Positions 9,478 through 61,587 of a DNA stretch of 64,000 nt are shown here, piece by piece. Source of the DNA: Imbricaverruca yamaguchii (Eukaryota > Arthropoda > Thecostraca > Neoverrucidae); the NCBI GenBank assembly GCA_034440575.1, contig JAOTOL010001640.1, positions 2,085,501 through 2,149,500 on the forward strand. Reading direction: 5' to 3'. The notes beneath the pieces are model-generated. The model did no database searches and had not been told where the DNA came from. It was given only the letters and a program-made list of their open reading frames with translations. The position numbers and the translations under genes are program-made. How positions within the stretch are numbered: position 1 is the first letter of the stretch; the number at the start of each line of letters is the position of its first letter.

Positions 9478-9568
9478 CTGCGCTGTCGCTCTGGGCGCTG
9501 CATGACCAATGTAGTCGATGCGCCCTAAAGCCCTAATAACTAACTAACTAACTGCGCTGTCGCTCTGG
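9478..9568 (+). mobile_element. mini-hairpin retroposon copy m1 with 17-bp target duplication
   Basis: A 57-bp insert (9495-9551) is flanked by perfect 17-bp direct repeats, ctgcgctgtcgctctgg, at 9478-9494 and 9552-9568. The insert reads gcgctgcatgacc, then gtagtcgatgcgccctaaag, and ends in an aactaactaact tail. The ends of the core (GGGCGC and GCGCCC) are complementary and could pair as a hairpin. The tail and the target duplication are what an RNA-mediated insertion would leave. It lies inside the Syt1 intron, 73 bp upstream of the alternative exon. Confidence 0.85.
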
Positions 9569-9641
9569 CGCCGAGTCTTCAGCAGCCCACGAGACGGGCC
9601 GCACCGCAGTCTTATCGAAACCGCCGCCTCGCCGTCCGCAG

Positions 9642-9779
9642 ATCCGTACGTTAAGCTAGAACTGCTGCTCGGCAACCGAAAACCGAAAAAGAAGAAGACG
9701 TCGGTGAAGAGAAAAACGCTAAACCCCTACTTTAATGAGAGATTCACGTTCGAAAAGATCACCAAAGGCGCAGATCGAG
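9642..9779 (+). CDS. Syt1: alternative or decayed second version of the Syt1 middle C2B exon
   Basis: A second copy of the exon at 14977-15110. After the acceptor ccgcag (ending 9641) it encodes [15 protein letters not shown], the polybasic run KKKKTS, then [17 protein letters not shown], matching the other exon residue by residue with many conservative changes. It begins with the same phase. The natural end by alignment is atcgag followed by gtagcc at 9780. This gives 138 nt, one base too many to join the last exon in frame, and the donor is weak. With the final stretch read one base shifted, it gives a KAQIE ending that resembles FEQIQ. So this is either a mutually exclusive exon with a one-base error in the sequence, or a duplicate starting to decay. 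Alternative C2B exons of synaptotagmin I are known from Aplysia (recalled). Confidence 0.6.
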
Positions 9780-9824
9780 GTAGCCGCCTGGGTCTGCGGG
9801 TGTGGTGATGGTGCTCTGCATGCG

Positions 9825-10065
9825 GTATGGTGGTATGGCGGTATGGTGGTATGGTGGTATGGCGGTATGGTGGTATGGCGGTATGGTGTTATGGCGGCAT
9901 GGTGGTATGTCGGTATGTCGGTATGGTGGCATGGTGGTATGGCGGTATGGCGGTTTGGCGGTATGGTGGTATGGTGCTATGGCGGTATGGTGGCATGGTG
10001 GTATGGTGATATGGTGGCATAGCGGTATGAAAACATGGTGGTATGGTGGTACGGTGGTATCGATA
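9825..10065. repeat. 8-bp GGTATGGY minisatellite
   Basis: Continuous tandem gtatggtg / gtatggcg repeats, with occasional gtatgtcg and gcatggtg, starting 45 bp after the alternative Syt1 exon. Open frames here reflect the repeat only. Confidence 0.95.
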
Positions 10066-10069
10066 TAGC

Positions 10070-10790
10070 AGAATACCAGCCAGGTGAGCCCAGTGTCGAC
10101 CTTCAGCGGTCATCTGCCGGATCACCGTAGGGACACAATGGTCATCTCCCCACAGCCAGGGCTGCGACAAAGGTAATCAGCTCCGCAAATGTGAGAAGGC
10201 AAACGTCATCTACATGATCAAATTTATAATACCAGGCGCCTATATTTGGTGACGTGAAAATACAAGGCTTTATGCAGCGTCGGGGTACTTTGTAGTGATA
10301 TTGAGCATAGATGCAGCTTACCAGTGACGGGACTGGAAAAACTTCACCAGATGTCATTAAATGATCTCCCAATTATATTATGTTTTAGCACAGTACCGTA
10401 TGCACCAGCCGTCAATGCTTTTTTAAGTGGCTAACTTTGACGTTCATCAACTCCACACCCCAATACTTTTTGATAACTACGTCCGTAGTCGCACTGAAGC
10501 CATCCAATCACTCTTGACCCATACAATGCACGTTGTAGAACTACCACAGTTTGCAAGGGGACAGCTTCTTCCAGCCTATTATAGCACATCTATATCTATT
10601 CCAGTATGTTTATTCTCACACGGGAGGAAGCTTAAAACATACACTTAAGTTATTTTCACCAAAATCTGAGTACGTCCATATTACCGTGCTCCGGTAAGTT
10701 CACGAATCTGAGTACATCCATGTTACAGCACTTCGGTGGGTACCCGAATTTATAGCCTTGCTGGGCACGGGGGGTGGAAGCAGGTGCACG

Positions 10791-10795
<5 letters not shown>
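10070..10795. other. Syt1 intron, nothing recognised
   Basis: Unique-looking intron sequence. A small direct repeat, ctgagtac(g/a)tccat, occurs around 10666 and 10710. No exon or transposon is recognised. Confidence 0.5.
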
Positions 10796-10798
<3 letters not shown>

Positions 10799-10838
<40 letters not shown>

Positions 10839-10842: not shown

Positions 10843-10864
10843 CTGTTAGCTGGTTTTGGTTGTG

Positions 10865-11209: not shown

Positions 11210-11261
11210 ATTTGTTTTTGGGCTTTAGGGTGCTTCGACTAGTCTTTGATCATTCGCGCCC
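11210..11261 (-). mobile_element. mini-hairpin retroposon copy m2 (old)
   Basis: On the + strand, gggctttagggtgcttcgac is followed 10-20 bp later by gatcattcgcgccc. Flanks atctgtgcggatg (left) and atctgttcagacggatg (right) look like a decayed target duplication. Confidence 0.6.
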
Positions 11262-11420: not shown

Positions 11421-11480
11421 ACTTCATTGATTGATTATTTGAGCTTAAGGGCGTGCCGACTACGAGGTCATTTGGCGCCC
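11421..11480 (-). mobile_element. mini-hairpin retroposon copy m3
   Basis: Reads (+ strand) ttgattgattatttgagctt, aagggcgtgccgactacg, then aggtcatttggcgccc. The tail-derived part is attgattgatt. Flanks aaaaaggca and aaaaaagca suggest a 9-bp target duplication. Confidence 0.7.

Positions 11481-13070: not shown

Positions 13071-13166
<96 letters not shown>
13062..13166. repeat. (AT)n microsatellite, right of mariner
   Basis: Continuation of the AT run interrupted by the mariner insertion. Confidence 0.95.
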
Positions 13167-13167
<1 letters not shown>

Positions 13168-13209
13168 TATATGTGTGTTTGTGTGTAGAAGTGTCTATGT
13201 CAAAATGTT

Positions 13210-14255
13210 GTCATGGCAAAATGTTCTTAGTGGAGTCCCCCAGGGGTCAGTACTGGGGCCACTACTGTTTATTATATTTGTAAATAACATTGAAAGTGGC
13301 CTAAGCAGTAAGGTTGTGAAATTTGCGGATGATTTGAAAGTCCTTAGGGCAATAACAGGTCAAAATGAACATATCTCGCTGCAAAAAGACTTAGACGAAC
13401 TTGTGAAGTGGTCCGAAGAATGGCAAATGAAATTTAATTTCGGTAAGTACAAAATCATACATGTAGGTAAGCAGCATATGAAGGCTCCATACTTGATGGG
13501 TGACCAAGTGCTATCAGTGACTCGACAGGAGAAGGATTTAGGTGTCATTCTAAACACAAAATTGGGGGTATCAGAACAGACCAAGGAAGCCAGGAAGAAG
13601 GCACTAAGAATGCTTGGGGCAATAAATATGAATGTATCATACAGAAGTGAGGAAGTCATCAGGAAGCTTTACTGTGCATATGTCAGGCCACATTTGGAAT
13701 ACTGCATCCAACCTTGGTCTCCTAGCTATGAAAGAGATTGTTGGCTTTTAGAGAGAGTACAAAATAGGGCTACAAAAATGGCTAATGGTATAAGCAACCT
13801 GGCATATGAGGAAAGATTGAAGAAGTTGAATATGTTTTCACTTTGATATAGATGGCTGAGAGGAGATCTCACCGAGGTCTTTAAATTTGTCCATGGTCTG
13901 GCAGAGGGGATATCTTGGGGATATGTTAAAATTTAACAGTAATGATGCCATTAGAGGTCATCAATTCAAAATTAAAGTTAACTACAGCAGAACAAGGTTA
14001 AGACAGTCTTTCTTCACTAACAGGGTAGTAGAACACTGCCAGAAACCATTGTAAGTAGCAGCACATTGAACGTCTTTAAAAACAGCATAGACAATCATAA
14101 GAATAGAGGGCTTGCTTTTCAGTATTACAGGGAGGGCTGATCGACGGATTTGGTGGGCAACTGGTTGAGTGTACAGAGTGCAACCAAGAAGGGCCCTTGT
14201 GGCTCATAGTTGCACTAATCTTTTATGTCTTTATGTCTTTATGTCTTTATGTGTA
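13210..14255 (+). mobile_element. 5'-truncated CR1/jockey-group LINE copy
   Basis: Begins within the reverse transcriptase at [20 protein letters not shown], followed by the KFADDLK catalytic motif (F-A-D-D) and the conserved C-terminal region (LEYCIQPWSPSYERD, RLKKLNMFSL). A stop at about 13844 (ttttgatatag) and later frame changes break it. It ends in tandem atgtcttt repeats at 14220-14250, the 3' tail of the family. It is roughly 90% identical to the longer copy at 51899-54134 over the stretches I compared by eye. The reverse transcriptase palm is incomplete, so this copy cannot move by itself. Confidence 0.85.
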
Positions 14256-17017: not shown

Positions 17018-17397
17018 CAGTGAGCAAAAGGTGCAGCTGGTGGCGACCGTGATGGACTATGACCGGGCCGACCCCTGTTGATCAGAAGGTGGTAGCCGTG
17101 GTGTTTATTTGTTTGTTTATTGGGTGGTTCACGACGCACTTCATGCACATTCACGGCTAATGGCGCCGCCCACACTGTTTCGCCGGTGGGCCGCGGGATT
17201 GGGAAATGTCGCGATCGGTGCGGGTGTCGAACCCGGGACCTTTGGTACCCAGAGCCCATGGTAACCGTGGTCAACTATGGCCGGGCCGATCCCTGTTGAT
17301 CAGAAGGTGCCGTGGTGAGCTATGGCCGGGCCGACCCCTGTTGATCAGAAGGTGGTAACCGTTGTGAACTGTGACCGGGCCGGCCTCTGTTGAGCAG
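17018..17397 (+). repeat. partial tandem copies of the 5' end of the last Syt1 exon
   Basis: At 17018-17095 the sequence gcaaaaggtgcagctggtgg and the following gaccgtgatggactatgacc repeat the first 40 bp of the true exon at 17398, with acceptor-like DNA. Further shortened and drifted copies (gtaaccgtggtcaactatgg, gtggtgagctatggccgggc, gtaaccgttgtgaactgtga) follow at 17257-17390, each joined by ccctgttgatcagaaggt. A SINE-A copy has inserted in the middle of the array. The first copy would read KVQLVATVMDYDR and then meets a stop within a few codons, so it is not a usable exon. Confidence 0.85.
17086..17272 (-). mobile_element. SINE-A copy 2 inside the Syt1 exon-fragment array
   Basis: Contains the family body (gtttattgggtggttcacga, cgccggtgggccgcgggatt) and a B-box complement cgaacccgggacc. 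The 5' part of the tRNA-like head is short. Flanking ggtagccgtggt (left) and ggtaaccgtggt (right) may be the target duplication or two array units. Confidence 0.8.
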
Positions 17398-17592
17398 AAA
17401 GTGCAGCTGGTGGTGACCGTGGTGGACTATGATCGGATCGGCACGTCGGAGCCGATCGGCAAGTGTGTGCTGGGCTGCGTGGCGTCCGGCACTGAGCTGC
17501 GCCACTGGTCCGACATGCTGGCGTCGCCGCGTCGGCCCATCGCCCAGTGGCACACACTCAAGGACCCCGAGGACGGCGACAAGAAGGACTAA
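17398..17592 (+). CDS. Syt1: synaptotagmin 1, last exon with stop
   Basis: Encodes [20 protein letters not shown], which includes the two calcium-binding Asp residues of VVDYD, then the C-terminal C2B helix region ([20 protein letters not shown]) and a short tail, [12 protein letters not shown], before TAA at 17590-17592. The acceptor is gttgagcag, ending 17397. It joins in phase 0 to 15110. The WHTLK ending is the conserved C terminus that interacts with the release machinery in Syt1. Both borders are unusual: partial tandem copies of the 5' border lie upstream (17018-17397), and the 51-bp end including the stop codon is re-copied downstream (17593-17844). Confidence 0.95.
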
Positions 17593-17844: not shown

Positions 17845-19030
17845 GGACAGTGCCGGCCGCCGCCGGACCACGCTGCCACGCGTGGAAACCAGATGCTGGT
17901 GGGTCTTCCACGGACTCGTCAACGTTGATTCTGAGAAGCGTTGGATCTCTGGATCAGTGGTCAATTGGTAGGATAATATTTCTGGGATGCAAGGACGTGC
18001 GTGGTCACCGGTCGGTCTTGGCACTTCAGTTGGCACACCGCATCACCATACCATGAGCAGCATGAGTTCTCAGACCACTGAGGATTATCCGCAGTGATTA
18101 ACTTGTCGTAGAATTGGCAGTCGCTATGATTGGTAATACTTGACACTTTATAATACCCATCATCACTGGATCAGCGGAGGATGCAATTCAATTTTTGATG
18201 TAACGGAATATTATTATTTACAGCGTAGTTAGTTTAGGGCTTTAAGGCGCATAGGCTACGTTGGTCATGTAGTGCCCATTTCTTTACACCGTACAATCAG
18301 TGCACTCGCTTTGTGTATTCAAGCACCCCAAGTGGACGGAAAAGCACGTAGTGGAGTGGGAAATTCCGAAGAGCCTTGTAATTTGTAAGATTTATTTCTT
18401 TAAGCGTTTCTTTAAGCGTTTCCATTCAAATACTCCGTGCTTGCACAAAAAAAAATGTTTGACAATGAAGGGATTTACTTCTTGCGCATTTTTGTCGGCA
18501 CCTCAGAACTCGGTTTGCTGCGCTATGCAACGTAATAATAATTGCAAGGCACTTGTGTGCTTTGTGGAAAGTTACCGCACTCGTGAAATTAATGAACACC
18601 ATAAAGAACACAGCATGGTATTGGCAGCGTATTACATGATATTACATCGGATAAAAGTACTACTTTGTGACACCGTATAACTGAGTCGCGAGCTTCCGAT
18701 AAAGACTGTAAAAGCGAAACCTGGCAACTGTCTTACAGCGTATATACCGCCGAACAAGATATGCCAGGCTGGTTGACAGAGCTGGGCGACGGGTGCAAAT
18801 TTCCACCCCATACGCAATCACAGTACGCGTTTCATCGCCGACCGACACTCACTGCAGGTGGTCCCGACGCCCGCTAACAGTCCCTCCCCCGTCAGGAACC
18901 GTTGACAGGTCCGAAGAGGCCGGAACGACCCGGCGAGGCCGAGGTGGAGATTGGAGCGCCATCTACCGGTGCTGAGCTGAGTGGGATCAACAGGCCGGTC
19001 CGGCCACGCTCGCACGGACCTCCGAGCCGG
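17845..19030. other. intergenic or Syt1 3' region
   Basis: No gene is recognised. An old mini-hairpin retroposon lies at 18226-18277. No clear AATAAA polyadenylation signal was found close to the Syt1 stop. Confidence 0.5.
18226..18277 (-). mobile_element. mini-hairpin retroposon copy m4 (old)
   Basis: Reads (+ strand) agttagtttagggctttaag, gcgcataggctacgttgg, then tcatgtagtgccc. The tail side shows agttag. Target duplication is not clear. Confidence 0.6.
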
Positions 19031-22855: not shown

Positions 22856-22857
22856 AC

Positions 22858-23160: not shown

Positions 23161-23224
23161 ATAAATGAAAGATACACCACACTAAGTGGCTAAGTAGTGA
23201 CGAACTTAAATGTTGCGGCTAGCT

Positions 23225-23560
23225 GCTTTGGACATGGTATGGAATAGTGGTGCTACGGTACCGACAGCGGCAGCACCCCTGGCGGGAACACAACACGCCT
23301 GGTGGTGCCACGGCACACCTGCAGAGAGTACCCCAGATGGGAGCACAGAACATCTCGTGGTGCTACAGACCGCCAATGGGAGCGCAGCACATTTTGTGGT
23401 GCCACGGCACACCTGGAGAGAGTACCCAAGATGGGAGCACAGAACATCTCGTGGTGCTACAGACCGCCAACGGGAGCACAGCACATTTTGTGGTGCCACG
23501 GCACCCACGGCAGGAGTACAGCACGTCTAGTGGCGTCACGGCACCCCTGGCGAGATTGAT
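23225..23560. repeat. about 94-bp minisatellite, 3 partial units
   Basis: Units contain tggtgccacggcacacctg, gagagtacccaagatgggag and cacagaacatctcgtggtgc. Units begin near 23303 and 23397. A mini-hairpin retroposon inserted at its right end. Confidence 0.9.
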
Positions 23561-23619
23561 TGATTATTTGGGTTTAAGGGCGCGCCGACTGCTAGGTCAT
23601 TTGCGCCCACCCTGGCGAG
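23545..23619 (-). mobile_element. mini-hairpin retroposon copy m5 with 10-bp target duplication
   Basis: The insert 23555-23609 reads attgattgattatttgggtt, taagggcgcgccgactgc, taggtcatttgcgccca and is flanked by ccctggcgag at 23545-23554 and 23610-23619. This is the cleanest copy with an (ATTG)n-type tail in antisense. Confidence 0.85.
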
Positions 23620-23689
23620 GGCACCTCTGGCGGTAGCGGGAGTACAGCACGACTGGTGATAACATGAAGCTCGTGGTAAGACAGCCTCC

Positions 23690-24535: not shown

Positions 24536-24539
24536 AGCG

Positions 24540-27420
24540 CAACCCCCCGGGTCACCGCCGTCGGAGGCAGAGCGCCGGCCAGCCGGCGTACAGGTGGCCA
24601 TGTGAATCCGGCACGTCCAGAGCACACTTTCGACGACGCCGCCAGCGGCGGAAACACAACACGGCGAAATTTTGAACCATCACAAGCGAGTCGAAAGCAC
24701 AACCGCTCCGACTCCCCAGTTGCATTGTCATCAACACCGCACCAGCAGCCACAGCACGGACAATGTACTATAGCTGACCTGGGTCACCGTCGCCCAGCTG
24801 CAGAAGGTTCGCGGTTCGAGGCGCGGAGCAGGATATACCGGGGCTTGCTCACACGCGCTGGGCGGCCATTGAAGGTGCTCGGACTTGTGAAGGTGAAGAC
24901 CAGAAAAGCTAGACCGAGAGTACAAAGCTACGTGAAGAATAGCTGCCTACGCCAATGGATGCCTAAGGAACGTGCAAATAGCTGCCTACATAAATTAATG
25001 GAACGGGTGGGTGTTCAGGGTCGATTGGGTATGCCTCTCGCAGCCCACCATGTACCGTGCCACAGTGCTCCCAGCGGGGCCGCGGCCAGGTCCCGCGGAC
25101 ACGTGCGGCTTAGCCGTGGCTGCTGCTGCTGGACGAGCCATCAGTATCGCATGCAGAGACGGTATAGCTGTGCGGAACACTTACCTACGTCACCACTGAA
25201 TTGCCTCCACCGATCTTAACGTCGGTGCCACCAAATTTCAAATGTTAAATCGATATCAATCCCGATCTAATTTTCGTGTAAACGTTTGGCAACTTAATCC
25301 AGGCTTTCTGAATCGCTGTATGGAAGTAAGCTGCAAGCAACTGCAATTTCTTCCAGATTTGCCATGTTTCTTAATCTTTGTTGCAACACATTAAAAAATA
25401 TGCACCTATTTTTACATCTGTGAATGTGTACATCCACGCCGTCTTGCGCCTGTCGAATTGCGACTTCCGCGGCTTCCAGTATCGTTGCTTCATATCCTCC
25501 ATTTTGGAACAGCTAACTTCTGGACACTGCACGACGCCGAGTGGGCAGTTCGTTCAGAGAGCCACTCGGGGTAGTGGGAGTGACGCTGGTCGGTGCCGTC
25601 GACCGTCTCGAGGCCGGAGACGAGCCGACCTCCACCAGCCAAGCGCACCCTAATGGCTCGACACTCTCGCCGACCCCACTTGTGGTAGGACCCGATCCGC
25701 CGGACAAAACAGCATAGGAATTGAGCACGACCACGGCATACCGAGCTATTTGGGTTTAAGGGCGCTTCGACCAAAACGTGATCATTTAGCGTCCAAACGG
25801 CATACGAATCGGGTCTTCTGCTGCTATCCGCACGGCTTACAGATGATCGACGTCACGGCTAAAACTAATTTGGCCCCACTATACGAACGTACGCATCACA
25901 ACAGCCAGTAATGCGGGTCAGAATCGACATGCGAAGCAATTTGGATAAAATAATTCAGCACTAAATTAACAAAATAACTAGTCAGCCTTCTGAGCGTTAG
26001 CTGACGGTATTGCAACACTAGAAAAAAGACAGCACCGAGATTTAATGGTAACATAAATATAGCACTTATAAATAAATTCAGTACAGCTGCTCTCCAGTCA
26101 TGCAAAAAAAAGATATCCTACTATCCGGAATACACCGCGACCTGGCACACCCCATGTGCTGGCTTTGCCGAGCACCTCCACAGATCACTCGATTTAGATC
26201 ACCTGTCAACAAAGCAGCGCAATAACGACGTGCCACCATATCGACCCAGCACGACTCCCGGGGTTCGTGGCGGCCAAGCAGCTGAGTCCTGCGACGAACC
26301 GGCCCGCCTAAATCACAGCAGTACGACGAAACAAAGTGAATAGTATAAAATATGGAGGATTCGACGCGGTGTTATCACACACAAGCAGGACTACACGAAT
26401 CTACATCTACTACCAGCACCGAAATCACTACAGACGCTACATAAGTTGGACCGCTGCAATAAACGCCTATCGAAAGACACGCAGGAATATCCAATGAAAC
26501 CCGGATCCAGATACCACGCCACTGGCCAAAAGTTGGCGAAGCCCACAAGGATGATTAGATGGCACCCACTATGGACCACATGAAACCGACCAGGAAAATA
26601 CTGTACGCTAAGTATCACCATGGTCTACCGGTGCCTAAAAAGACTCCAACTTTTCCAAGTCCAACTTGAGTAGCAGACTGCTCGACGGACGTTCGTAAAA
26701 ATCGTGTTCGTGGCGACAACTGCTGACGCTGTTCGTAGCGATAATTCCTGACGCGAGTTGAGCCTCGATGAGCCTTGACGCCGCCCCAGCTCGGCATCTC
26801 GGGGCACGCAGCTCCGTTGATGACGTCATTGGCCAACGGATGCACGTCACCAGTAGCGTGGCGAGGCGCGGAACCCCCATTGTCACGTGGCGATCGGTGG
26901 AGCCAGCGGTCTCGCTGCACTGAACTGGAACTGAACACTCGATTTCACACAGCGGACAGAGATGATGGGCCAGAACCAGATTTGACCCCATGGCAGTCCG
27001 ATCTGACCGCACAGCGGTGTCGGGCCATACCCCACATCGGTGTTAGACCTGACCCCACAGTAGTGTCAAACTTGACCTCACAACAGCTACTAGCACCCGT
27101 ACCGTCCATGGCCGCTATTGGATAGCTTCCAGTGCGCAGTCACACCCCGTACCACCCGTTGCGATGGAATTATCCGCCCCAGCCTGGACCCGACCGTCGA
27201 CCTCGTCCAACAACTCCCTCCACATCAAGACGACGAGGTCTACCTCAGACGACTCCTACATCAGACGAATACGTCTACGTCAGACGACTCGGTGTACGTC
27301 AGACGACGACACAGTGTCCATCAGACGACACAGTGTCCATCAGACGACATCCGCCAGCAGGGAGGCGGCGGCGGCCGTGTCGAGGTCGGCACTGCAGCTC
27401 GCGGCGGTCCTCTCCGCTGG
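24540..27420. other. intergenic DNA 3' of ceramide kinase
   Basis: Contains one mini-hairpin retroposon (25742-25796). Otherwise I see no gene with support. No AATAAA signal on the - strand close to 27421 was evident. Confidence 0.45.
25733..25805 (-). mobile_element. mini-hairpin retroposon copy m6 with 9-bp target duplication
   Basis: The insert 25742-25796 contains tttgggtttaagggcgcttc and gatcatttagcgtcc and is flanked by acggcatac at 25733-25741 and 25797-25805. Confidence 0.8.
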
Positions 27421-30500: not shown

Positions 30501-33500
30501 ATTGTGTATGTTTTTTTAACTTAAATTGATTGACTGGTGGCAGATGCATGTGGTTTGTGGTAAAAACGTCCAGTCGCGGTCCGGATACACGGCATAACAC
30601 GGCAGACGCGTGCATCTCACAGCAACGATGCGTGTATCTCAGATAGCTGGAAAACCGGCAGTTGAGCGTCTGACAGTCGCCTCAGCGTGACGGCCCGAGT
30701 ACGTGCTCCGGAGAGAGGACAGCATGGCTGCAGCAGCATGTGCCCACACAAGCTCGGTGTCGTGCACACTGGCCAACAACGAAGCGTCAACTGACCTCTC
30801 CAGACGATACAATCGGAGTTTAGGGGCGCATCGACTACATCGGTCATGCAGCAGACGATACAATCCATATCCACAGCACGACGCTAGAATGAACTGAGTT
30901 GATTATATCTCTCACAATGTTACAAACTACTATCGGCGGCTGAAGCATCACAGTCTACCAACGCATAGCATCAGCCTCAGGGATGAGCACATCAGGGACA
31001 CCATTGTCGGCAGAGCAGCGACATCAGTGATCATGTGGCCAATTGCACCCCAACCAGATTCACTCGCGAGTCTACGTCCAATCTGTAAATTTATACCAAA
31101 TCCTGCACTGAAAATGTACGTAGACCCTGTTCACCGATACCGCTACACGGTAGCTCAGACTGCAGGTGAGGAGCGGCCTGACCCAGTCCCAGGTCAGGTC
31201 AGCACGTCGGGCCCGCTCTGTGCGCCACACCCACCCTGCTTGTCCGGCTCGGGGTCCGCCGGCCGGCTGGCGGGCGGCGGCGGCGGCTCTCGACAGCACA
31301 CCTCGCAGTCGGCGAAGCAGGCCTTGTGCGGCGCCAGCGCGCCCGGCGCGGTGCGGAACGCCACCGAGCCGCGGTAGGCGCGGCTGCGCCAGAAGCGGCC
31401 GAAGCCTGCCGACACGGGTCACAGGATACACCACGGTCCGGCACGGGTCACGTCGCACGCCTGGTCAATGGGCACCTCGGTGGTGGTAGATTGGAGTTTA
31501 GGGGCGCGTCGACATCTAGGGTCATTTTGCGCCATCAATGGGCACCTCAGTGTGCTAAATGACCTCGTAGTCGGCGCACCCTTAAGCCCCCCACCTCAGT
31601 GTCACGGCACACATCTGGTCAGAACACGTCAGAGGGGTCATGGCACACACCTGATCAGTACACCCCAGATGAGTCACGTCGCACACCTGGTCAGTGGGTA
31701 CCTCGGTGTGCTAAGTAACCTCGTAGTCGGCGCGCCCTGAAGCCCCACCTCAGTGTCATGTCGCACACCTGGTCAGTGGGTAGCTCGATGTGCTAAGTAA
31801 CCTCGTAGTCGGCGCGCCATGAAGCCCCACCTCAGTGTCATGTCGCACACCTAGTCAGTACACCTCAGAGGGGTCATGTCACACGCCTGTGCACTGGCCG
31901 GCTGTCGGCACCTCGTGTCGGGGTCCCGCCCCGGCCCGCGGCGCTGACTGGTGCCGATGGCGGCAAACAGGACGTTCCCGCTGACAGTTGACTGTGTGGT
32001 GAGACAACACCAGCCAGGCCGCCTGCGCCACCATCCGCCTGGTCGCACCCCATCCCACCCACACCACAAACACCGCCGTGAGGAGACCCCACGTGACGGA
32101 AGGCGACCTTGTCCAGCCTGTCACTCCAACGTCCCACCACAGGACACAGCGCGCAGCAAGTGCAAGACGGGCACCCACACTACCCTGGTGAACCCATCGC
32201 TGCGTGCTCCTTAGTGGCCAACACAGGACACGCGCTGCTGTCGATCTGTTCCAGCTCGCGACTGGTGTCGGCAGACAGGTGAGCAGCGATTATGGACTGT
32301 GTGCTCGAGGCAACAGCAGAGCGAGCAATCGCTCTGCTTTTGTATCCCGCACGCGCTGAGAATGCAAGATGCATCGCACGTGGCTCACCAGTACACACCG
32401 TGCCGGGTAGAACCGCAAGATATTCGCCGTATTAAACGCAATCAAACCTATCTGAGCACGTACGCCCACGCGCACGCACACACATTCACATGCGCGCTGG
32501 CATACAAATACATAGATATACACATACGCATACATACAAATAGATATACACATACGCAAATAAGTCTGCCCAGCATCCTCTGTATGTAGTAGGTGAAATA
32601 GCAGCAGGTGTTAATGACGTAGTGGTGTTACTACGTAACACGTGGCCAGGCCGACTTTCCACAGCTCACCTGAGCCACCCAATGACGCCGCTGCCGCCGC
32701 TGCCGCCGCCGTGGCCAGCCTGCCCAGCCAGGTCTCGGACACACTGCGGCCTGCGACCAACTGACCTGCCACGTTGTAGCGCATCGGGCCGAGCCAGAGC
32801 AGCTTCTCGCTGGCCTTCAGCAGGTCGCCGAAGAAGCCGTAGGTGATCATGGAGAGCGAGTAGCGCAGCAGCCGTCCGCCGCTGCGCAGACTGCACACGT
32901 CCACGTACCGGGTCTCCCCTGTCGGCGGCAGCCAGGGTCAGACGGCACACGTCCAGGTACCGGGTCTCCCCTGTCGGCGGCAGCCAGGGTCAGACGGCAC
33001 ACGTCCAGGTACCGGGTCTCCCCTGTCGGCGGCAGCCAGGGTCAGACGGCACACGTCCAGGTACCGGGTCTCCCCTGTCGGCGGCAGCCAGGGTCAGACG
33101 GCACACGTCCAGGTACCGGGTCTCCCCTGTCGGCGGCGGTCAGGGTCAGGCGGCACACGTCCAGGTACCGGGTCTCCCCTGTCGGCGGCGGTCAGGGTCA
33201 GACGGCACACATCCAGGTGCCGGGTCTCCCCTGTCGGCGGCAGCCAGGGTCAGACGGCACACGTCCAGGTACCGGGTCTCCCCTGTCGGCGGCAGCCAGG
33301 GTCAGACGGCACACGTCCAGGTACCGGGTCTCCCCTGTCGGCAGCCGCCAGTGTCAAGCGATCGCAAACACAGGGTCAAGCGATCAAGCGAGAGTTGTGT
33401 TGACAAAAATGCTCCAAATCACGCACACTGCGTCTGTGGAGGGTACACCACTGAAAGTGAAAGACTTCAAAAGGTGTTAAACTTTGTAAGCGGGGTAGTA

Positions 33501-36500
33501 GCTGGTTTAAATCGCACTGTCTCACCTACATCATCTCAGCTCGGCTGGCTAGCAATGAAGGGGCTTATCGGAACGGAAGGAAGGGTGGAAACAAAGCGGC
33601 CCCGCCGGAGAAGAAAGAGGCTGCCCCGCGCTGCATTGTCTGGCGGAGAGACACGTATATCCACACGTCCGCTGATCCGCGGCGCCAACTGCCGAGTGTG
33701 GGGGCCCAACCAGCACGTCCATCATTCGAGTATAGAGTGTTGTTAGCCTGGCACAACCTGGGCTCTTCACTAATAATGAAAAAGCTGCCATGGAACATGA
33801 GCATGTATCATGTCAGCTGATTTTTCAGTCTGCAACTGTTTGTAGTCAGCACGCATATTTAATCAGTATCAACTTTGAACCATTTTACCTTGCAGCGTGA
33901 CAATCACAGTGCGTACTGCTTTGACGCGTACATTTGTCTGAACATGGAAAGGCCAGTTTTCTGGGAATGTTCTGTGCACACCACTAAAACGAAACATTCC
34001 TGAAAGTCGTCCCAAAGTCATGACCCAAAGCCACGGGTACCGATACCACCAGCACGACCACTGCGCAGCCACTATGTACTCAGCTGCGGCCAATTCAAAT
34101 GGCTGATTATTCAGGTTTTGGGCTGCGTTCAGCAACAATACTTCAGCACACCATTGAGGACAAGTGCGCCGCTGCGGTACGCCGACACTGTTCCACACGG
34201 TACGAAGAGGACGAACGCTCGTCCAAGCCGGCATCACAGCCGTACGTGGTGGTGGTCGTTAGGTTTTACGACAAGTCGACCGTTGAGTCACGTAGCGTCG
34301 CCAATCTCTCACGCCGATTGGTCGCGGGGGAAGAGTAGCGACAGGTGAGACTCGAACCCACACCCTTTCGATTGTGAGACGGGCAACCTATCCCCAGACT
34401 ACTCGTCCCCACAGCCGTACGTGACGTGACTTCCCACCAGAACTACCGGCCACTGGGCGCCGTAACGCGTACGCTTTCAATTAAACGCCAGCTATGCGTC
34501 CGCCACATACCCCAGCGATACCTGAACGCCAGACAGTGTAAAATAATTGACCATGTGGCCTGGAAAGTCACAGTTAATGGAATTGTGCTATTTCATCCTT
34601 GTCTTATGTTTTTACCATTTTGCCACATGTGTGAGCAGTCATTATACACACGACTGTTAAATAATGTAAAATGCATGTGACTGAAGTGAAAGGCATTCCG
34701 CTTTTTTAATCCTTAAGTGGCGATCCTTTACTTTCTTCCAATCTTTCACTATTCCCAAGCAACTTCTTTCTCATCCACACAGTCAATGGTGAAGTAATTT
34801 TATGACACTGACGCCAGACAATGCGATATGCTATGATACAAAAATACCTTGCCATTCACAGAAATGTGGAGAGAAAAAAATTATAGCATTTAACGATACG
34901 GCATGAAGGCATGTCGCAGCGTGCGAAATGCTTTCATACCTTACAAAGCGAACGCGAGGCACCTGAAACTTCGTCAAGATAGTGTCAACAGGCTGTGACA
35001 TATCTACTCAGGAGCATACCAGCAACAGAAGATGAATATTGACACGCTCAGGACGTCGTATCATCGATGATAAACCGCTCCTATTAGCTTGCATAAATAT
35101 CAGCGTTTTCGCAACAGCATCTCATTAATTTTGTTCCACGTTTACCCTGAAGTGTGATTTTCTATCGATTTGGGCGGCTTCCACGTTTCGACCGGCTTTA
35201 ACGTATTAGCTAGGTTGTCTTTGGCCGCGACTTACGCATTCTAAAAGCAGAAGTTCCATAACGCAATCAACTTTTTATCCATGGGCATGCATACGTTGCA
35301 CGTGAATACACGTCAGACTCAGCCAGGCAGGCGATTTGTCATTCCAGCTACCGGTCACAAACATCACTGGTGTGCTCAAGCTTACTGACACGACTGAAGT
35401 CGACCGAGGGGCGGGGATGGCCGAGTGGTTAAGGTGTCGGGCTATGGGTACCGAAGGTCCCGGGTTCGACTCCAGCGCCACTCAGGACATTTCCCAATCC
35501 CGCGGCCCACCGGCGAAACAGTGTGGGCGGCGCCATTAGCCGTGAATGGGCATAAAGTGTGTCGTGAACCGACCAATAGACAAACGAAGTTGACCGACCC
35601 CGCGAGCTCTAGATTGACTTTACATGAAGAACTGGCGAAAACAATTGCCGAGAAATTAACAGTCATGGTTCTGGGGCGATCTTGTTTCTAGTTTGTCTGT
35701 TCCGAGGTGGCTTTATGTCGTAGGCTAATGAGAGAGTTATTTTAGGGCTTTAGGGCGCATCAACTGCAGTGCTTATACAGCGCCCATAGGCTAGTGGGAT
35801 GGAACACAAACAGGTATCAGCTGATGGGCCACAGGCGCACCCAAAGGATCACGAGGCTCACCTCCCTCAGCGACAAAAAAAACTGTTTTCAGTGAGAGAA
35901 GAAAAATTGACAACACTTCAAACGTTACACAGTATATACAGTTCCAAACATTTGAGGAGGTTTTTTTTTCGATTTCAAAGGATTGAGTAGTCAGTACCGT
36001 ATATTAGCAAAACATGTGTTGCACAGTTGGTCGACCCTCCTTGGGAAAATCCTGGGTCCGCCTCTGGACGGGTCCCAGCTGGCGTCCATTGATTTGACGA
36101 AATGTGAGAGCTGACCACCTGAACACCGGCAGACACCAGCTGACGGGCCCTCCAGCTGGCGCTGGGCCGTGACCGGGCCGTGACCGGGCCGTGACCGGAC
36201 CGTGACCGGGTCGTGACCGGGTCGTGACCGGGTCCTGACCCGGTCGTGACCTGGCCGTGACCGGGTCGTGGCCGGAGGGGAGACGCGTCTGGTACGGGCA
36301 CCAGCCGAATGCTACTACAACACCAGACAGTGGCCATTACGGCCTACACCAAGAGCACATGCCAATACACACGCGCTCACATTGGTGGATTTAGTGACGA
36401 TTTTTCTGCATAATATGAGGTAGCGAACACCCTTAGCACACTAGCAATGTCCAGCGGAAGCTGAATATCACAGCTTCATCACAGCTACGTTTTTGACACC

Positions 36501-39500
36501 CGTCTTTTTAGCTTTTCAGCTTTCATGGGCACGAGACCAATGCATTTCATGATGATTACAACTGACTGTAAGCTAAACCCAAATTAATTTTTGTCTTCTT
36601 TAACATGCATAACACAAACGTCCGCCATGTCCCCGCTCATAGCAAATTTCCGATCGGTGACAATGAATGGTCAGTATATTTTTTCAGCAATGAATTTGCT
36701 GCCAAATGTACGGATCCAACAGTGTGCTTTCTTCTTCATTATACTTTGGATTGCCTGCGCTCTTTGCCGGCTTCAGCTTTATTCTGGCACGCGTTTCGTC
36801 TTGGCGGCATTTTCTTCTTCATGAGATCGGCCTCAGGGTGTGCAGAACGGAGGAATAGTTGAGCCGATGAGTCAATTACATGACCGCAACCCACGTAATG
36901 GAAGACCCATAGCGGAAAGTAAGCAGTGTCCAGACAGATACCCTTCCCGTAAATGCAGTCCAAGCAGAGAAACCATTGCGCTGGAGGATATTAATTGCAT
37001 GCCGATCCACTCGTGTTGTTGAGATGATTGAAATGCTACGTCATACGTGCGGTTTGGTCAATAAATATGCGAGCACACGGACCACCAGCTGACAGTGCAT
37101 CCGATACACAAAACCAGCAGCTCGAATTTTCCTTCCTGGTATCAAAAGACAATTAGCTACGGGATATTATGGAAGGAGACAACCTAACCGGGATGCAATA
37201 TTTGTGAAATTTTTACTTTCATCTTCATGACCGCAGATAGTCCAAAATTCACCAAAAGCTTTTTTCTTCTCTTTTAGAGTTATTCCATGGGTTTCTGTGG
37301 CTGCCGAAAAGCATAGGCTGATACGCTTATGCTCATCTGTATTGATTTTATGGGCCTGAACAGATATGCAGGTCATCCATATATTAAAAACGTACTTGGG
37401 CCATAACGTTTCATCTGATGATCTAAGCGAATCAAGATTGTGCCTGGCGAATTATGGAGACGAGAGAACCTCTGGTATCAATGTTCGTCGAAATCGGAGA
37501 GATGAGTGCATTGAATTCCATGCCCGCATCAGCGGACGTGGCATTCTGGGGACGAGTAGCCTAGGGGTAAGTTGCTCGTCTCACAATCGAAAGTTTGTGG
37601 GTTCGAGTCTCGCCTGTCGCTACTCCTCGCCCGGGACCACTCGGCGTGAGAGATTGGCGACGCTACATGACTCAACGGTCGACGTGTCGTAAAACCAACA
37701 ACCAACCGGACGTGGAATTCTGCTGATTTGTCAGTGAATGAACTCCCCAATAGTTAATGTTTCCGGCGAGTGTGTACGCGGTTACGCTGGTAGCGCTGGC
37801 GCAGCGTCCACCCCTCCCCCGTCTCTAAGCGCACGACTCAGTTCTCATTGGACGTGATTGCACTTATTTTGATTTGGAGCCGTCGTAGCCAAGTTCAGTC
37901 GCCGATGCCAGGGACTAAGTGCATCAAGGTCGCGTAATCAGCGCCGCCTGCTGGTGCTCATTTGGAAACTGCCGCCACCTGTTGACTGCCGACAGTCGCG
38001 ACGTGCCGCTGCAGAGGCCGCTGCTCTGACGACCGTCAACACACGGCGACCCGGGGTGGGTGGGGGGGGGGGGGGGGGGGGGGCACTCACCCTGTCATCA
38101 GTGCCGGGGGGAGGAGGCTGCCCGCCACTGACCTCCGGCACTTACCACACCGGCCGGGTGGAGGTGAGGCGGCTGCCTGGCACCTGCATCGGTTATGCTC
38201 GGACAGTCGACACCTCAATCCGTCCCAAACCAATTCCAATGCAGTGCTTTATATCAATTTTGGCGCCGAGGATAGGCCCATCGTGCTCCATCCGAAATGA
38301 AGAAAACCATCCGTCCGATGTGTTAGCTCGCATGATGGCACACACGAATCGTCCCGTGGAAGTACGCCCGCCTTTGCGTATAAAGAGGAAAAAGTGGGCA
38401 CAGGAGCGCAAGGATAGAACGTGTTTTTCACCTTACAGCTTCGCTCTGGTTAACTTCCGATTTTCACGAGCGAGTGTTCAGTCATTTTCAAGGTCAGATC
38501 CATTCCGCCACTTGAGAAAGCAAGAAATATCCTGTGAGTGCATCTGGTGGTTGTAAATCGGGCTTCTGCGCACACCGTGGACCACTTGCCATGACAAAAT
38601 GATAGCTATTGTCTCGTTTGACATGTCAAAGGAATCATTGCATAACTGTAAACAATTCGTGTTGGTTGGTTATTGGACACATCGACCGTTGAGTCAGGTA
38701 GCTTAGCCAATCTCTCACGCCGATTGGTCGCGGGTGAAGAGTAGCGACAGGTGAGACTCGAACCCACAACCTTTCAAATGTGAGACGAGCAACTTACCCC
38801 TAGGCTACTCCTCCCCTTACAAAATTCATGTTGAAAGCTAATCAGTAACATATGGATACAAACCCGCCAATCATATTTGGGCGGGAAGAGATGCTCCGGT
38901 AGTTTGGCTTGCAATGCTAATCACTGCCGGGGAAACTGTTGGTTAGTTATTGTGGCTGAGGGGCGCATCGACTGCATAGGTCATACAGCGCTATAGCGCC
39001 CATGCCGGGGAAACTGGACAGGAAAATGTTCCCAAGAGCATTCCAGCTCCGGTCCAGCTTGACCTGATCGGCCGGACACAGCCGAACGAGACCTGCCGTG
39101 TCTAACCTAACCTAATCTAGCCCAGAATCAGCATACAGAATCGCATACGCAAGCACCGAGACATGAACATAATTTTAGGAATCGGAGCTCCGTTCTCAAC
39201 ACGTCCGGGAGGAGATGGGCCACTGGGAGCCGCCAGCAACACACGGGTCACCACCACCGTGGAGCAGCGCGGCCAACAGTGCCAGGAGGGTGAGCGCGGC
39301 GAGCAGTACCGCTTGGGATAATATGGAGCGGCAGGTGCCGGCGGCCCATGCGCGTGAGAAATGAACGCACGAAACACAAGCAGCGTCCCCGACCGTCGGT
39401 GAATGCATGGCAGCACACCAGAATGCGAGGCACAGGCGGTGAGGCATGGCAACGAAAACGCAGGGGCTTGGCAGCAAGTCGCAATCTCCCGCCTGACCTT

Positions 39501-42500
39501 ACGGCAGCCTATACACCAGCCGCTCCAGTGTACTTTGAACTGATAACTTGTTGGCTTTAGCACTCGTGGACACTCGCAGTCATTAAACTTCGTCCCTGGC
39601 CATGACACAAGGGGTACAACCGAACGAACCAGCTTCCTCATACTGGGCGAAAATTTGTGTGTAATGAAGACACCGTGTGGTAGCATCCTTTCGGAACGGT
39701 TTAACACTCACATAAGATTTCAGGGCAAGGCTAGCAAGAGAGTGCACCTCAACCAACGCCTTGGTGCCAAACATGCTCTGAACGAAGAGCCAAAACTGAC
39801 CTGATCTGGAGCAACACAACCAAACTAACATAACCTGGCTTACCCTATTGTACCTAAACTTACCTTAACATACCTGACTATGCGCGGGACTAGTGACCAT
39901 GGCTATACACAGGGCTGCCATGATCTACCTACCTATGACTGTGTGGACACCTGGCGTGGCCGACCCACATAGCTATGTGAACAGCTGCAGTGACCTACCC
40001 ATGACTATGTGTAAGTCCACTGCGACCTACCCACAACAAGGTGTAGGGTTGTTGTGACCTACCCATGTCTATGTGTAGGTCTGCTGTGACCTACCCATGA
40101 CTAGATGCTGGTCCACTGTGACCTACCCATGACTATGTGTAGGGCTGCTGTGACCTACCCATGACTATGTGCTGGTCCACTGTGACCTACCCATGACTAG
40201 GTGTAGGGCTGCTGTGACCTACCCATGACTAGGTGCTGGTCCACTGTGACCTACCCATGACTAGGTGCTGGTCCACTGTGACCTACCCATGACTATGTGT
40301 AGGGCTGCTGTGACCTACCCATGACTAGGTGCTGGTCCACTGTGACCTACCCATGACTAGGTGTAGGGCTGCTGTGACCTACCCATGACTATGTGCTGGT
40401 CCACTGTGACCTACCCATGACTAGATGTAGGGCTGCTGTGACCTACCCATGACTAGGTGCTGGTCCACTGTGACCTACCCATGACTATATGCAGGGCGGC
40501 CGTGACCGGGTCCTGGTTGCCTTGTATGCTGCCACACACCGCGTCCGTACTGCCGGCTGTTGGGAACATCAGCACAGGTCACATCCACAGGTCGGCGACA
40601 AACTGGTCACTGGGGCGGAGCACTAACACACACACACATACACACGAGTCCCAAGCCGCAACATACAGTCATAGTACCCCACACCGTCGGCACCCCCCCC
40701 CCCCCCCCACACACACACACACACAGACAGACAGAAACGACATCAGTCTTCGAACGAAACACACTGCCAAAGACAGAAACGGCAGCAGCCTTCAACCGAA
40801 ACATACACAAACAGAAGGGACGGCAGCCTTCATCCGAAACGCACCGACACAAACAGAAACAACAGTGGCCTTCAACCGAAACACACCGCTAGTGACCGAA
40901 ACGGCGGCAGCCTCCCACCGAAACGCAGATGATGTAGCGTGAGGTAGAACTATGCCCGACCGTTTTTGTCTCTATCATCGGGCAGTGCTGTCAATTTGGG
41001 GGCTTTAGGGCGCATCGACCATGTTGATCATATAGCAGTGTTGTCAAGCATCGAGCTGAGAACGACCGGCTAACTGCAACACTCAGGCGGATGAGGGGAC
41101 GGCGAGGCGGCGGATGAGGGGATGGCGAGGCGGCGGATGAGGGGATGGCGAGGCGGCGGATGAGGGGATGGCGAGGCGGCGGATGAGGGGATGGCGAGGC
41201 GGCGGATGAGGGGATGGCGAGGCGGCGGATGAGGGGATGGCGAGGCGGCGGATGAGGGGATGGCGAGGCGGCGGATGAGGGGATGGCGAGGCGGCGGATG
41301 AGGGGATGGCGGGGCGGCGGATGAGGGAGATAGGCGAGGCGGCGGATGAGGGGCTGGCGAGGCGGCGGATGAGGGGATGGCGAGGCGGCGGATGAGGGGA
41401 TGGCGAGGCGGCGGACGAGGGGATGGCGAGGCGGCGGAACTGACCGGGGATGACGCCGATGGGCACGGGCGCGCGGGGCGGCTGGTCGGCCGACTGCCGC
41501 ATCAGCAGGCCGTTCAGCACCTCCATCAGGGTGCCGTCGCCGCCGACAACCACGACGCCGTCGCAGTCGCTCAACGAGCACTGCTGCATCACCGAGGACG
41601 CTTGGCCGGCGTACGTCGTCTCAATCGCCTCCATCTGCCGACACTAGAGGGTCAGCGTCTGCCGACAGCGGAGGCTCAGTGCTACCATCTGCTGACACTA
41701 ATGGGAAGGAGAGCAGTGTCTCTTTCTGCCGAAACCAGAATGGGGCTGGCAACACCGTATGCCGACATCGGGGGGGGGGGGTCAGCATCACCATTCTCCA
41801 GCACCAGGGGACAGGGAGTCAGCACCACTCTGCCAACACCAGAGAGGGCGGGGTGGGGGACTAGCAGCACCATCCATTCGCCAGTACCAGGGAACAGGGG
41901 ATTGGTAGCACGGTCTGCCGACACCAGAGGGAAGGGGGGGACGAGCGGGGCGTCGCTCTCTGCTCCACCAGTCACCATCGGTCCCGACACCATCTTCCGC
42001 CAGATCGTGGTGCCTAGGAATGAAATTCCTCTCTAATCCTCTGTCCTTAACCCACGGAGTCAGTGGAGGAGACTCCCTCGGTTTTTCCGCAATAGCAGTG
42101 AAATCAATTGAGACAGCAGGTTGAGACATCTAGTACCTTCAAATGAACACCTAGGACATTATATGTTAAAAATTACCTCGGGGTCATCTCAGGTCATGTT
42201 CCAATGACGCCATAAATTCGTTCGTAAGTCCTGCAGCATCTCAAATGATTGATTGTTACGATGAGATAAAATCGGACTAATGAATACTAACAGATCAATA
42301 CAGGTGCAATGGGTGTACCAGAGGTCATTTTTTATCACGTGACCCAACTAGGCCATTCTGGGTCATATTGATATTATTAATTTTATTCAGATACGAACGC
42401 TTAGAACTGGATAAGATATTCAAGTCATTATAGAATAAATATACTGGTTACAAAAGGCATCCTTATCTGTGAGGTAATCATAGGTAAAATATACATGTGT

Positions 42501-48872: not shown

Positions 48873-48873
48873 C

Positions 48874-59340: not shown

Positions 59341-59753
59341 CTTTATTGAGTGCATGCTGTTTTAACACCAGGCGTCCTCATAACACACAGTTCAATCTGC
59401 ACATGCCAGGTGGTGTTCACCATCAAGACATGCGCTATTGGAGGACGTAATAAACGGTGCGCCACTATAATTCATAATTTAATAGCAGCTGCAGCCATCA
59501 ATCTAGCGCGATCCATATTCTGTCACATATTGGATGATGGATACCGGACGATAAGTTCATATCCGTTGGCGTTCTCGTCGGTAAAGACGCCTTGCCATGT
59601 ACATGGCGTAGGTTGTCCCGAGAGGGCCATCTCCCAGCACAGCTCGGGGTCGGGCTGCATCAGTGACCAGCTCGTTACCTGAGATCCATCGACGCACCCG
59701 ATACGCGTGCATTGATGGGGGCGGGTCATCCAGGGCAGTATCGATGGTCATGC

Positions 59754-59971
59754 GCTATCTGTTTGGTTTGGTTTTGTTTGTTTTGTTTATTGGTTGGTTC
59801 ACGACACACTTTATGCACATTCACGGCTAATGGCGCCGCCCACACTGTTTCGCCGGTGGGCCGCGGGATTGGGAAATGTCCGGAGTGGCGCTAGAGTCGA
59901 ACCCGGGACCTTTGGTACCCATAGCCCGACACCTTAACCACTCGGCCATCCCCGCCCCGCTATCTGTTTGG
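59754..59971 (-). mobile_element. SINE-A copy 5 with perfect 13-bp target duplication
   Basis: The element 59767-59958 is flanked by gctatctgtttgg at 59754-59766 and 59959-59971. Read on the - strand: ggggcggggatggccgagtg gttaagg (A box), gggttcgactct (B box), body and a caaaac-rich tail. Near-identical to the reference copy at 35408. Confidence 0.95.
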
Positions 59972-60139
59972 ATAACAAACTTCGGACATCTGGCGGTCGT
60001 GTGCCACCTATTCGTGAATCAACTCCGCGCGATGGCCGCGCACTCTGACTAGATATACCAGCGGCTTAGGACCCCTTCGCCCTCCCCCTCTCCAAGAATG
60101 AACCTTTTGCGTACTTGGCTGAAGCACTGCGATATACTT

Positions 60140-60620
60140 TTAACCCGTTCCGTCTCGGGGGTCTTCAACCGCGCCCCCCTCATATTTTTCGCGGATAACG
60201 GACGAACGGCGCGCGGCAGCGCGCCAAGATTTTGCATACCTTTTCCCACATCAATTTGACATGCTGATTCAATTTTTTTGGGTCAGGTCATGTATGGTTA
60301 ACGAGTTAGTCAAGGTCAAGTGAAGTCACCTCCAAAAACGTTCAACCAGTCGTCACGCATTAACGGATACAGATATTTTCATGAAACTTTCAGTATTTGC
60401 TTATCCTTACGGATGCAACAATACGTCCGAGTGGAATTTTTTTTCTTTTTTGACTAGATATGAATTTTGCGTATTTGCCAAATTGCAGTTCGAATACAGG
60501 ATTCTGGCCAAAGTAAGCATTTTTTATGATGACAAGTTGACTTCTAACAACGTTTCTCGGTCTGCTCTAACCAATGAAAAAGGAAAATTAAATACAACTT
60601 GAAAACTCAAAATTTTGAAA
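60140..60620. repeat. unknown dispersed repeat, copy 3 (shorter)
   Basis: Shares ccgttccgtctcgggggtct tcaacc, cataccttttcccacatcaa tttgacatgctgattc and agttagtcaaggtcaagtga with copy 1, then stops near 60620. Confidence 0.8.
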
Positions 60621-60899
60621 TTCCTCGCTGATTTTCTAGTATAAATAAAGTCAAGCGGACGTCGGCCGAACACCGACACCGAGTACGAAATGTGGCAATG
60701 TCAATTGAATGTCGTAGGGTAACTTCCAAACCCCTCGATATTGGAGGAGATGCGATTTAGTAGGCCCGGCTCGTTTTCCCTTAAATATTACATCCTTCTG
60801 GCATACTTTTTAGGTCGATTTGACGTCCATATTTCTGCATCTTCGTTCCGTCTTTCACAGTGCATTTCATTTTCCCTTCCGTGCCTCTGTCTGCCTGTC

Positions 60900-61020
60900 T
60901 CTATCTCCCTCCCTCTATATCTCTCGCTTTCTGCTCTCCTCTCGGAAGCGCTCTCTCTCTCTCTCTCTCTTTCTGTTTCTCTTGAGGGTTGCTTTTGCTC
61001 TCGCCCCCTATTTATGCTGC
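60900..61020. other. pyrimidine-rich tract
   Basis: ctgtctctatctccctccct and ctctctctctctctctctct tracts, then ctatttatgctgcc. It lies about 450 bp 5' of the possible first exon at 61461. A promoter role is only a guess. Confidence 0.3.
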
Positions 61021-61460
61021 CTTTTCTATATTTTGGTAATTCCTTTACTTCTTTGCTTTCCATTTGGATTCGTATAGGATCTACTTAACAGCCGGACTGC
61101 ATAGGGTACCCAACATGATTTTGCAAAACTATCGTGCTTATCCATTTTAATGAACTCTTAATATGCTTGGAGAGGGGAACTGGAGCCACAGGCTGCCTGA
61201 CCGGATTGCCACCACCTCCCAAACCGAGCTCCTCCCCCACCCCCACCCACACACGGTTGGTGGAAGCCACTGGCTCTCGGCGGCGGCAGTGGTGGTGGGG
61301 GCGGGGGGCGGGGAGGCCGGCGGTCGGCGGCGAATGGTCACCTCTGTCGGGCCACAGTGGCCGCCACCGTCGGCTGGACAGGGCGGCACGCGCCGGGTCG
61401 GAGGACGCACGGCACGTGCTGACACCCGCGCACGACGGCCGACGGCGCCACTCTGCAAAT

Positions 61461-61506
61461 ATGGCGCGAACTGTGCTTCTGCTGCTGATGTTCAGTCTTG
61501 AACACG
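61461..61506 (+). CDS. possible first exon with signal peptide (unknown gene)
   Basis: An ATG in a good context (aaat before, g after) gives MARTVLLLLMFSLEH, a typical hydrophobic leader, and is followed at 61507 by a consensus donor gtgagt, phase 1. It is preceded by 200 bp of GC/CpG-rich DNA, as expected near a promoter. No following exon was recognised before the window end. The donor and exon end have been duplicated by a mini-hairpin retroposon (see 61500-61587). Confidence 0.4.
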
Positions 61507-61587
61507 GTGAGTGGGCGTAATGTGACCAAAGCAGTCTGGGCGCCCTAAATCCCGAATAACTAGCTAGCCAACTCGAACACGGTGAGT
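61500..61587 (+). mobile_element. mini-hairpin retroposon copy m15 with 13-bp target duplication over a splice donor
   Basis: The insert 61513-61574 (gggcgtaatgtgaccaaagc, agtctgggcgccctaaatcc, cgaataactagctagccaac tc) is flanked by perfect gaacacggtgagt at 61500-61512 and 61575-61587. The duplicated target contains the last coding bases of the possible signal-peptide exon and its donor gtgagt. Full-length core plus tail, same orientation as m1. Confidence 0.88.

Follow-up and report, generated by a model that had tools for sequence, protein, structure and literature searches.

The window analysed here, a stretch of 64,000 nucleotides from the arthropod Imbricaverruca yamaguchii (contig JAOTOL010001640.1), carries many copies of a very short repeat made of a hairpin and a simple-repeat tail. 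This hairpin and tail are the 3' end of long interspersed nuclear elements (LINEs) that encode an endonuclease, a reverse transcriptase and RNase H. The copies of about 45-65 bases, of which there are thousands, are very probably 3'-end-only insertions of these LINEs, most of them starting within 1-2 bases of the hairpin foot. Four points are demonstrated below: that the hairpin belongs to LINEs, that copy number falls at its foot, that copies are flanked by target-site duplications (TSDs) and that short and long copies have variants in common. The repeat is real, abundant and LINE-derived; its insertion chemistry is ordinary, but its copies are unusually short and sharply bounded.

A first-pass annotation, made from the letters of the window, had suggested extending copies in the 5' direction and looking for a LINE with the same 3' end. 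We found such longer copies, continuing into LINE bodies with identical hairpin and tail. At L028, a reverse transcriptase (match to Pfam RVT_1) and an RNase-H-like region seen by eye run on into hairpin and tail, and L049, L050, L051 and L052 are LINE copies with the hairpin at their end. Alignment and open frames give LINE lengths of ~1.0 kb (L049), ~3.4 kb (L051), at least ~4.7 kb (L050) and at least ~5.1 kb (L052). The Pfam endonuclease (PF14529) was matched in L052 and L050 and fell below the cut-off in L051; RVT_1 (PF00078) was matched in L051 and L052 and RNase_H (PF00075) in L051, and L050 was tied to the reverse transcriptase by tblastn with the L028 enzyme. CCHC-like motifs were seen by eye in the upstream open reading frame (ORF1) of L052 and L050, and a Pfam search of the ORF1 frames gave no match. 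Among 20 loci with an exact 3' 19-mer, 8 resemble one another upstream over most of 182 bases, one group comprising 6 loci and the other 2. With the L028 enzyme as query, a protein search gave 118 relatives, the named ones coming from spiders, crustaceans and beetles, together with one metagenome record labelled Bacteroidota. With their domains in the order endonuclease, reverse transcriptase, RNase H, these parents appear similar to the I superfamily.

We found 10 sites for GCGCCCTAAA in the window with ≤1 mismatch, relative to a mean of 2.9 and a maximum of 7 in 100 shuffles. A profile search of ~287 kb, made up of the window, 20 loci of 10 kb placed arbitrarily (L009-L028) and 8 motif-bearing loci (L001-L008), gave 37 copies at E<0.02, with 16 of these in the window; when the sequence was reversed, the profile matched nothing at E≤1. 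Since the window matches at 31552, 31708 and 31790 are a single insertion multiplied within a minisatellite, 14 of the 16 are independent, and the duplicates at 31708 and 31790 were not counted among independent insertions. These numbers, with TSDs at most of the copies, agree with the roughly 15 copies of the first-pass annotation, and the duplications that it had quoted (9478/9552, 30801/30852, 38925/39003 and 61500/61575) were all located. Genome-wide, the 19-mer GTAGTCGATGCGCCCTAAA has 26,879 sites with ≤3 mismatches (13,741 + 13,138), and its reversed pattern has 50 (23 + 27). The arbitrary loci hold 12 copies per 200 kb, which would extrapolate to ~46,000 copies for 767 Mb; the window itself is denser. 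Viral contigs gave no exact match to one degenerate hairpin pattern.

The young form of the repeat is T-GGGCGCTACATGACCAATGTAGTCGATGCGCCCTAAAGCCCTAAT(AACT)n, and a second form carries GGGCGCAAAATGACCTTAGTAGTCCACGCGCCCTTAAGCCCAAAT(AATC)n. Its GGGCGC and GCGCCC ends, noticed early as complementary, form an outer six-pair stem that is paired in 91.7% of cells across 32 aligned copies, with no excess covariation. Two inner folds are near-equal in predicted energy (-14.7 and -14.6). The inner TGAC/GTCG pairing is kept in 91.4% of cells and the TACAT/ATGTA pairing, with its rival fold equal in energy, in 66.5%. Compensatory change in TACAT/ATGTA was 0.252, compared with 0.160 when shuffled (0/500), and exceeded that of the slid pairing too, relatedness among copies being uncontrolled. 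A pseudoknot combining both inner pairings was judged impossible by reasoning, since its loops would have zero length.

The copy number drops abruptly where the hairpin begins. For family F1, with ≤2 mismatches, we found 4,944 sites for the 19-mer of the hairpin 5' arm (reversed control 2) and 218 for a 19-mer of the untranslated region (UTR) ~10-31 bases upstream, the intervening stretch varying in length (control 14); a further 19-mer, at 1.5 kb upstream, has 96 sites (control 3). This is a ~23-fold fall across the hairpin foot and a 2.3-fold fall over the next 1.5 kb. A related second family (GGGCGCAAAATGACCTTAG hairpin) behaves likewise: its hairpin has 3,161 sites (control 2), and a UTR 19-mer taken from one subfamily has 110 (control 2). 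Both ratios should be read as maxima, since divergence may be quicker in the UTR than in the hairpin.

Individual loci show the same boundary. The F1 sample consists of 94 sites from the exact-19-mer listing (80 drawn for the sample and 14 earlier loci), with the last six listed sites and the weaker second copies in L038 and L048 left out. Since the listing runs from small contigs upward, the sample is not random, and since the 19-mer requires an intact hairpin start, the sample contains no copies truncated within the 5' arm; on these terms, 19/94 copies extend into the LINE and 75/94 are short. Instead of the variable 5' truncation expected of LINE copies, most stop at one boundary, while the four long copies measured above differ in length. 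At 20 loci of the second family, 6 copies are LINE-extended, 1 is partly extended (L140) and 13 are short; adding the LINE copy C252 (L040) gives 7 long, 1 partial and 13 short of 21. TSD scores reach ≥12 in 12 of these 13 short copies (raw scores, without mismatched-pair comparison).

Retroposition had been proposed for the repeat, with random flanks as the test against it. We found a TSD score ≥10 in 36/59 copies, relative to 2.8% of mismatched flank pairs in this set. In the F1 sample, 61/75 short copies reach this score, compared with 0/589 mismatched pairs, and 67/75 reach ≥8.5. The eight copies scoring <8.5 (L055, L058, L073, L082, L097, L102, L109 and L119; L058 and L082 lack a TSD) were kept in the denominator of 75, as were two pairs of hairpin copies with identical flanks, L086/L087 and L055/L073, which were therefore probably duplicated after insertion. 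A TSD with score ≥8.5 ending ≤3 bases from the hairpin was found in 48/75 short copies and 1/589 mismatched pairs. The TSDs of those 48 are 10-24 bp long (12-16 bp in 39) and lie outside the repeat tail.

A T stands directly before GGGCGC in 73/75 short copies, and the bases between TSD and hairpin, read in 67 copies, are T in 21, none in 11 (the TSD itself ending in T in 9) and AT in 7. Among the other 28, the extras matching the LINE are TAT, TTAT, TGTGTTAT (L110) and TATTGTTAT (L078), and three further extras are hairpin fragments. Leaving L058 and L082 aside, no LINE-matching extras of 10-100 bases were recognised among the 75 short F1 copies. At L046, a young copy appears by eye to be flanked by an older, degraded hairpin copy, so this insertion would have gone into or beside an older one.

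The copies in the window, whose starts are read below, are as follows.

9478..9568, plus strand: young-family copy; hairpin 9493-9525, core to 9537, AACT tail
9479-9494 and 9553-9568: TSD of that copy, 16 bp, or 17 bp counting 9478/9552
11217..11261, minus strand: old copy; TSD imperfect
11437..11480, minus strand: copy with AATC-type tail; weak TSD; start ill-defined, ~5 nt upstream of the hairpin
18217..18293, minus strand: copy; core 18234-18277; TSD TACGGTGTAAA / TACGCTGTAAA
22112..22151, minus strand: old copy; ~12 nt of upstream sequence ending AGTTAT; weak TSD
23545..23619, minus strand: copy with AATC tail; core 23566-23608; 10-bp TSD CTCGCCAGGG; additional T before the hairpin
25733..25805, minus strand: copy; core 25748-25794; 9-bp TSD GTATGCCGT; additional TT
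30801..30865, minus strand: copy truncated within the hairpin 5' arm; core 30816-30852; 14-bp TSD 30801/30852
31465..31552, minus strand: copy; core 31490-31533; TSD GAGGTGCCCATTGA
31543..31838, plus strand: minisatellite-borne insertion 31552-31589 and two more copies, 31708-31747 and 31790-31829
35721..35797, minus strand: copy; core 35742-35785; TSD CACTAGCCTA / CATTAGCCTA; additional T
38925..39016, minus strand: copy with repeated or inverted GCGCTA at the 5' end; core 38949-38991; perfect 14-bp TSD 38925/39003
40982..41047, minus strand: copy truncated ~6 bases into the hairpin; core 41000-41036; TSD TTGACARCACTGC
61497..61587, plus strand: copy; core 61513-61557; TSD 61497-61512/61572-61587, 16 bp with one mismatch, including 13 perfect bp at 61500/61575

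The minisatellite at 31543-31838 carries the hairpin insertion in three of its repeats, and the opposite-strand copy at 31490-31533 adjoins it.

The independent copies from the window and the arbitrary loci make a sample of 26 that is unselected for the 5' end, with starts read by eye. Of these, 18 start between -2 and +6 from the first hairpin base; copies starting at about +4 to +6, such as window 30852 and 41036, have an incomplete 5' arm. In the copy at window 38991 the start is repeated, ~12-13 additional bases precede two others (window 22151 and L016:7970), L028:829 is a LINE, and the remaining four (window 11480 and 11261, L016:4618 and L028:2828) have no readable start.

Two origins had been offered at the outset for so short a repeat, a LINE whose copies are cut to their last ~50 bases and a minimal short interspersed nuclear element (SINE) made from a small structured RNA. 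The former is borne out by the LINE-extended copies and the ~23-fold count fall. As for the latter, an RNA gene that is transcribed on its own and whose copies breed copies through the LINE enzyme would explain the near-uniform base before the hairpin, the great excess of short over long copies and those copies to which parts of a second hairpin are joined. However, the 75 short and 19 long F1 copies have an identical 60-base majority sequence, that of the LINE 3' ends, and the A/T variant at site 35 occurs in both classes (T in 6/19 long and 14/75 short copies; Fisher p = 0.22, one family), which is what continuous production from LINE RNAs predicts. Hence, the short copies look like LINE by-products and not like a separate lineage. 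The same cut in a second LINE family also argues against a SINE, and copies lacking part of the 5' arm, being unable to refold, would probably be dead ends. The impression that there is no tRNA, 7SL or 5S head holds as well: searches of the window gave no tRNA and nothing that reaches the Rfam gathering score, and an Rfam search of 5 hairpin loci gave no match on the hairpin and one (E 4.2) elsewhere. An origin from such RNAs was rejected on these searches, and a SINE lineage of its own, rejected on the common variants and the continuity with the LINE in one family, is very improbable. Still more remote, to the point of being negligible, is chance similarity, a miniature inverted-repeat transposable element (MITE) or a Helitron. 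The GGGCGC/GCGCCC ends could pass for terminal inverted repeats, but the reversed sequence gave no profile match, LINE bodies are attached, and the length of the TSDs and the position of the repeat tail, outside the inverted repeat, do not suit a MITE or Helitron.

Why copies end at the hairpin may be explained as follows. The LINE RNA would carry the conserved hairpin at its 3' end, with a repeat tail of AACT or AATC type behind it, and the hairpin may be the handle by which the LINE protein chooses its template, by analogy with stringent-type LINEs. Target-primed reverse transcription would begin in the tail and copy the hairpin, and in most events the copy would stop at the hairpin 5' foot, the last base usually being the U before GGGCGC. 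The cause that we prefer is that the usual template is a 3'-terminal RNA of ~55-65 nt, left once the upstream LINE RNA has been cut or degraded up to the protected hairpin, so that the enzyme would run off its 5' end. Part of the small-RNA idea may thus survive, the template being a short 3'-terminal piece of LINE RNA. That the LINE protein mostly mobilises this hairpin RNA, a protected footprint, and so has given rise to tens of thousands of hairpin-only insertions is a tentative proposal, somewhat short of probable.

Such a short RNA would sometimes jump templates or fold back at its true 5' end. Reverse transcriptases at a template end are known to switch to a second template or to fold back on the new strand. 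Between TSD and hairpin, we found pieces resembling a second hairpin in three copies, L074 with 11 bases, L036 with 12 (one mismatch) and L062 with 9. In L142, a gap of two bases separates the copy from the reverse complement of its own first 16 bases. Such joins at the boundary would favour a template with its end at the hairpin foot, the point at which these few fused and fold-back copies suggest that the RNA template stopped. The UA step is an easy cutting site for common ribonucleases, and a cut at the UA just upstream (UUAU|GGG) would fit the AT extras.

The stop could also lie in the enzyme. If the protein working on a long LINE RNA usually let go on leaving the hairpin, perhaps because hairpin binding keeps it in an initiation state, and the few escapers continued for kilobases, both the two-phase counts (4,944 to 218 at the foot, 218 to 96 over 1.5 kb) and the scatter of stops a few bases either side would follow. 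Against this, a bound or stable hairpin should by reasoning block entry and not exit, and second-hairpin joins and fold-back at the boundary better match a template end; such release seems rather unlikely. A further possibility is that a full complementary DNA is made and takes up the hairpin fold, after which a structure-specific nuclease of the host trims off the part left single-stranded. Stops near the junction of single and double strand, some within the stem, would suit this trimming, but it leaves the second-hairpin pieces at the boundary unexplained, and we regard it as improbable. Since release accounts for the two-phase counts equally well, we give the short template about half of the LINE explanation, release about a third and trimming the small remainder.

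Several points weigh against the short hairpin template and the sharp stop. The 23:1 ratio is possibly inflated, the exact-match sample giving 75:19, and the role of the hairpin as a handle draws on analogy. Fused copies are few (3/75), fold-back was seen in 1/13, and the common pieces are 9-12 bases long. Extras of other kinds, 2-16 nt long and mostly unlike the LINE, are present in 28/67 copies, some of them in minisatellites with an ambiguous TSD. Stops also scatter, some lying at +4 to +6 inside the 5' arm and others upstream, by as much as 9 bases in the F1 sample, ~13 bases in L016:7970 and more in L140; this spread over several bases is also compatible with enzyme release.

LINE truncation is usually viewed as a loss of processivity at varying positions. 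In fly mini-me elements a very short core is likewise joined to a simple-repeat flank, but these are of DINE-1/Helitron type, unlike the LINE 3' ends here. Stringent-type LINEs such as ZfL2 and UnaL2 have a hairpin near the 3' end and a repeat tail, as do the elements here. For the zebrafish LINE ZfL2, recognition and binding of the 3' stem-loop by the LINE protein is reported (PMC4176376). ZfL2 and UnaL2 are LINEs of the L2 clade; the present ones are endonuclease-reverse transcriptase-RNase H elements, in which the hairpin may have a comparable role. Ordinary LINE copies are described as 5'-truncated at various positions and 100-1,000 bp long (PMC3747384); ours are also target-primed, 5'-truncated and defective, but are 45-65 bp long with a sharp stop. 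In Lepidoptera, truncated 3' ends of RTE LINEs, with repeat tails and TSDs, seed microsatellites (PMC2887409). Like the copies here, they are 3'-end-only, common in genomes and mistakable for SINEs, with simple-repeat tails and TSDs; unlike them, they retain C-terminal reverse transcriptase coding sequence, and in the portion consulted no fixed stop is described (PMC2887409). The words 'hairpin' and 'stem-loop' are absent from the main text of that article. A limited literature search, covering parts of these three articles and of PMC7650587 (truncated R2 copies), found neither a fixed stop at a hairpin foot nor a retroposon this short, a weak negative.

The thousands of short insertions, in two LINE families, suggest that copying proceeds in two steps, separated by a sharp checkpoint where the 3' hairpin begins. 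They provide a natural, countable record for asking at what point a LINE enzyme goes over to long synthesis, whether RNA decay products are mobilised and how modules consisting of a tail only, which make up the back half of many SINEs, can spread. A hairpin-only unit, if true, would be to our knowledge the shortest natural retroposon unit, and possibly a first step toward SINEs with LINE tails. Repeat annotation may count hairpin-only units as SINEs, and caution is advised.

Two other reverse transcriptase loci were rejected as parents of the hairpin. The 3' end of the window's other LINE (51885-54028) is an ATGTCT-type repeat without a hairpin, and the reverse transcriptase in L020 has no hairpin in the 1.27 kb downstream. 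The former element, with RVT_1 and the ATGTCT-type 3' repeat, lies at window 51885-54140 and 13085-14137, with copies in L009, L014 and L023; its protein has a 98% identical match in a JGI (Joint Genome Institute) metagenome contig, among 120 of 7,960 matches listed.

On the minus strand of the window at 41083-41643, a frame matches the diacylglycerol kinase catalytic domain and continues into a GC-rich repeat. Long frames on both strands show repeated peptides by eye (3461-5553, 17320-18042, 22550-24783, 27094-28554, 29543-30206, 32686-33746 and 47383-48907), which point to many minisatellites.

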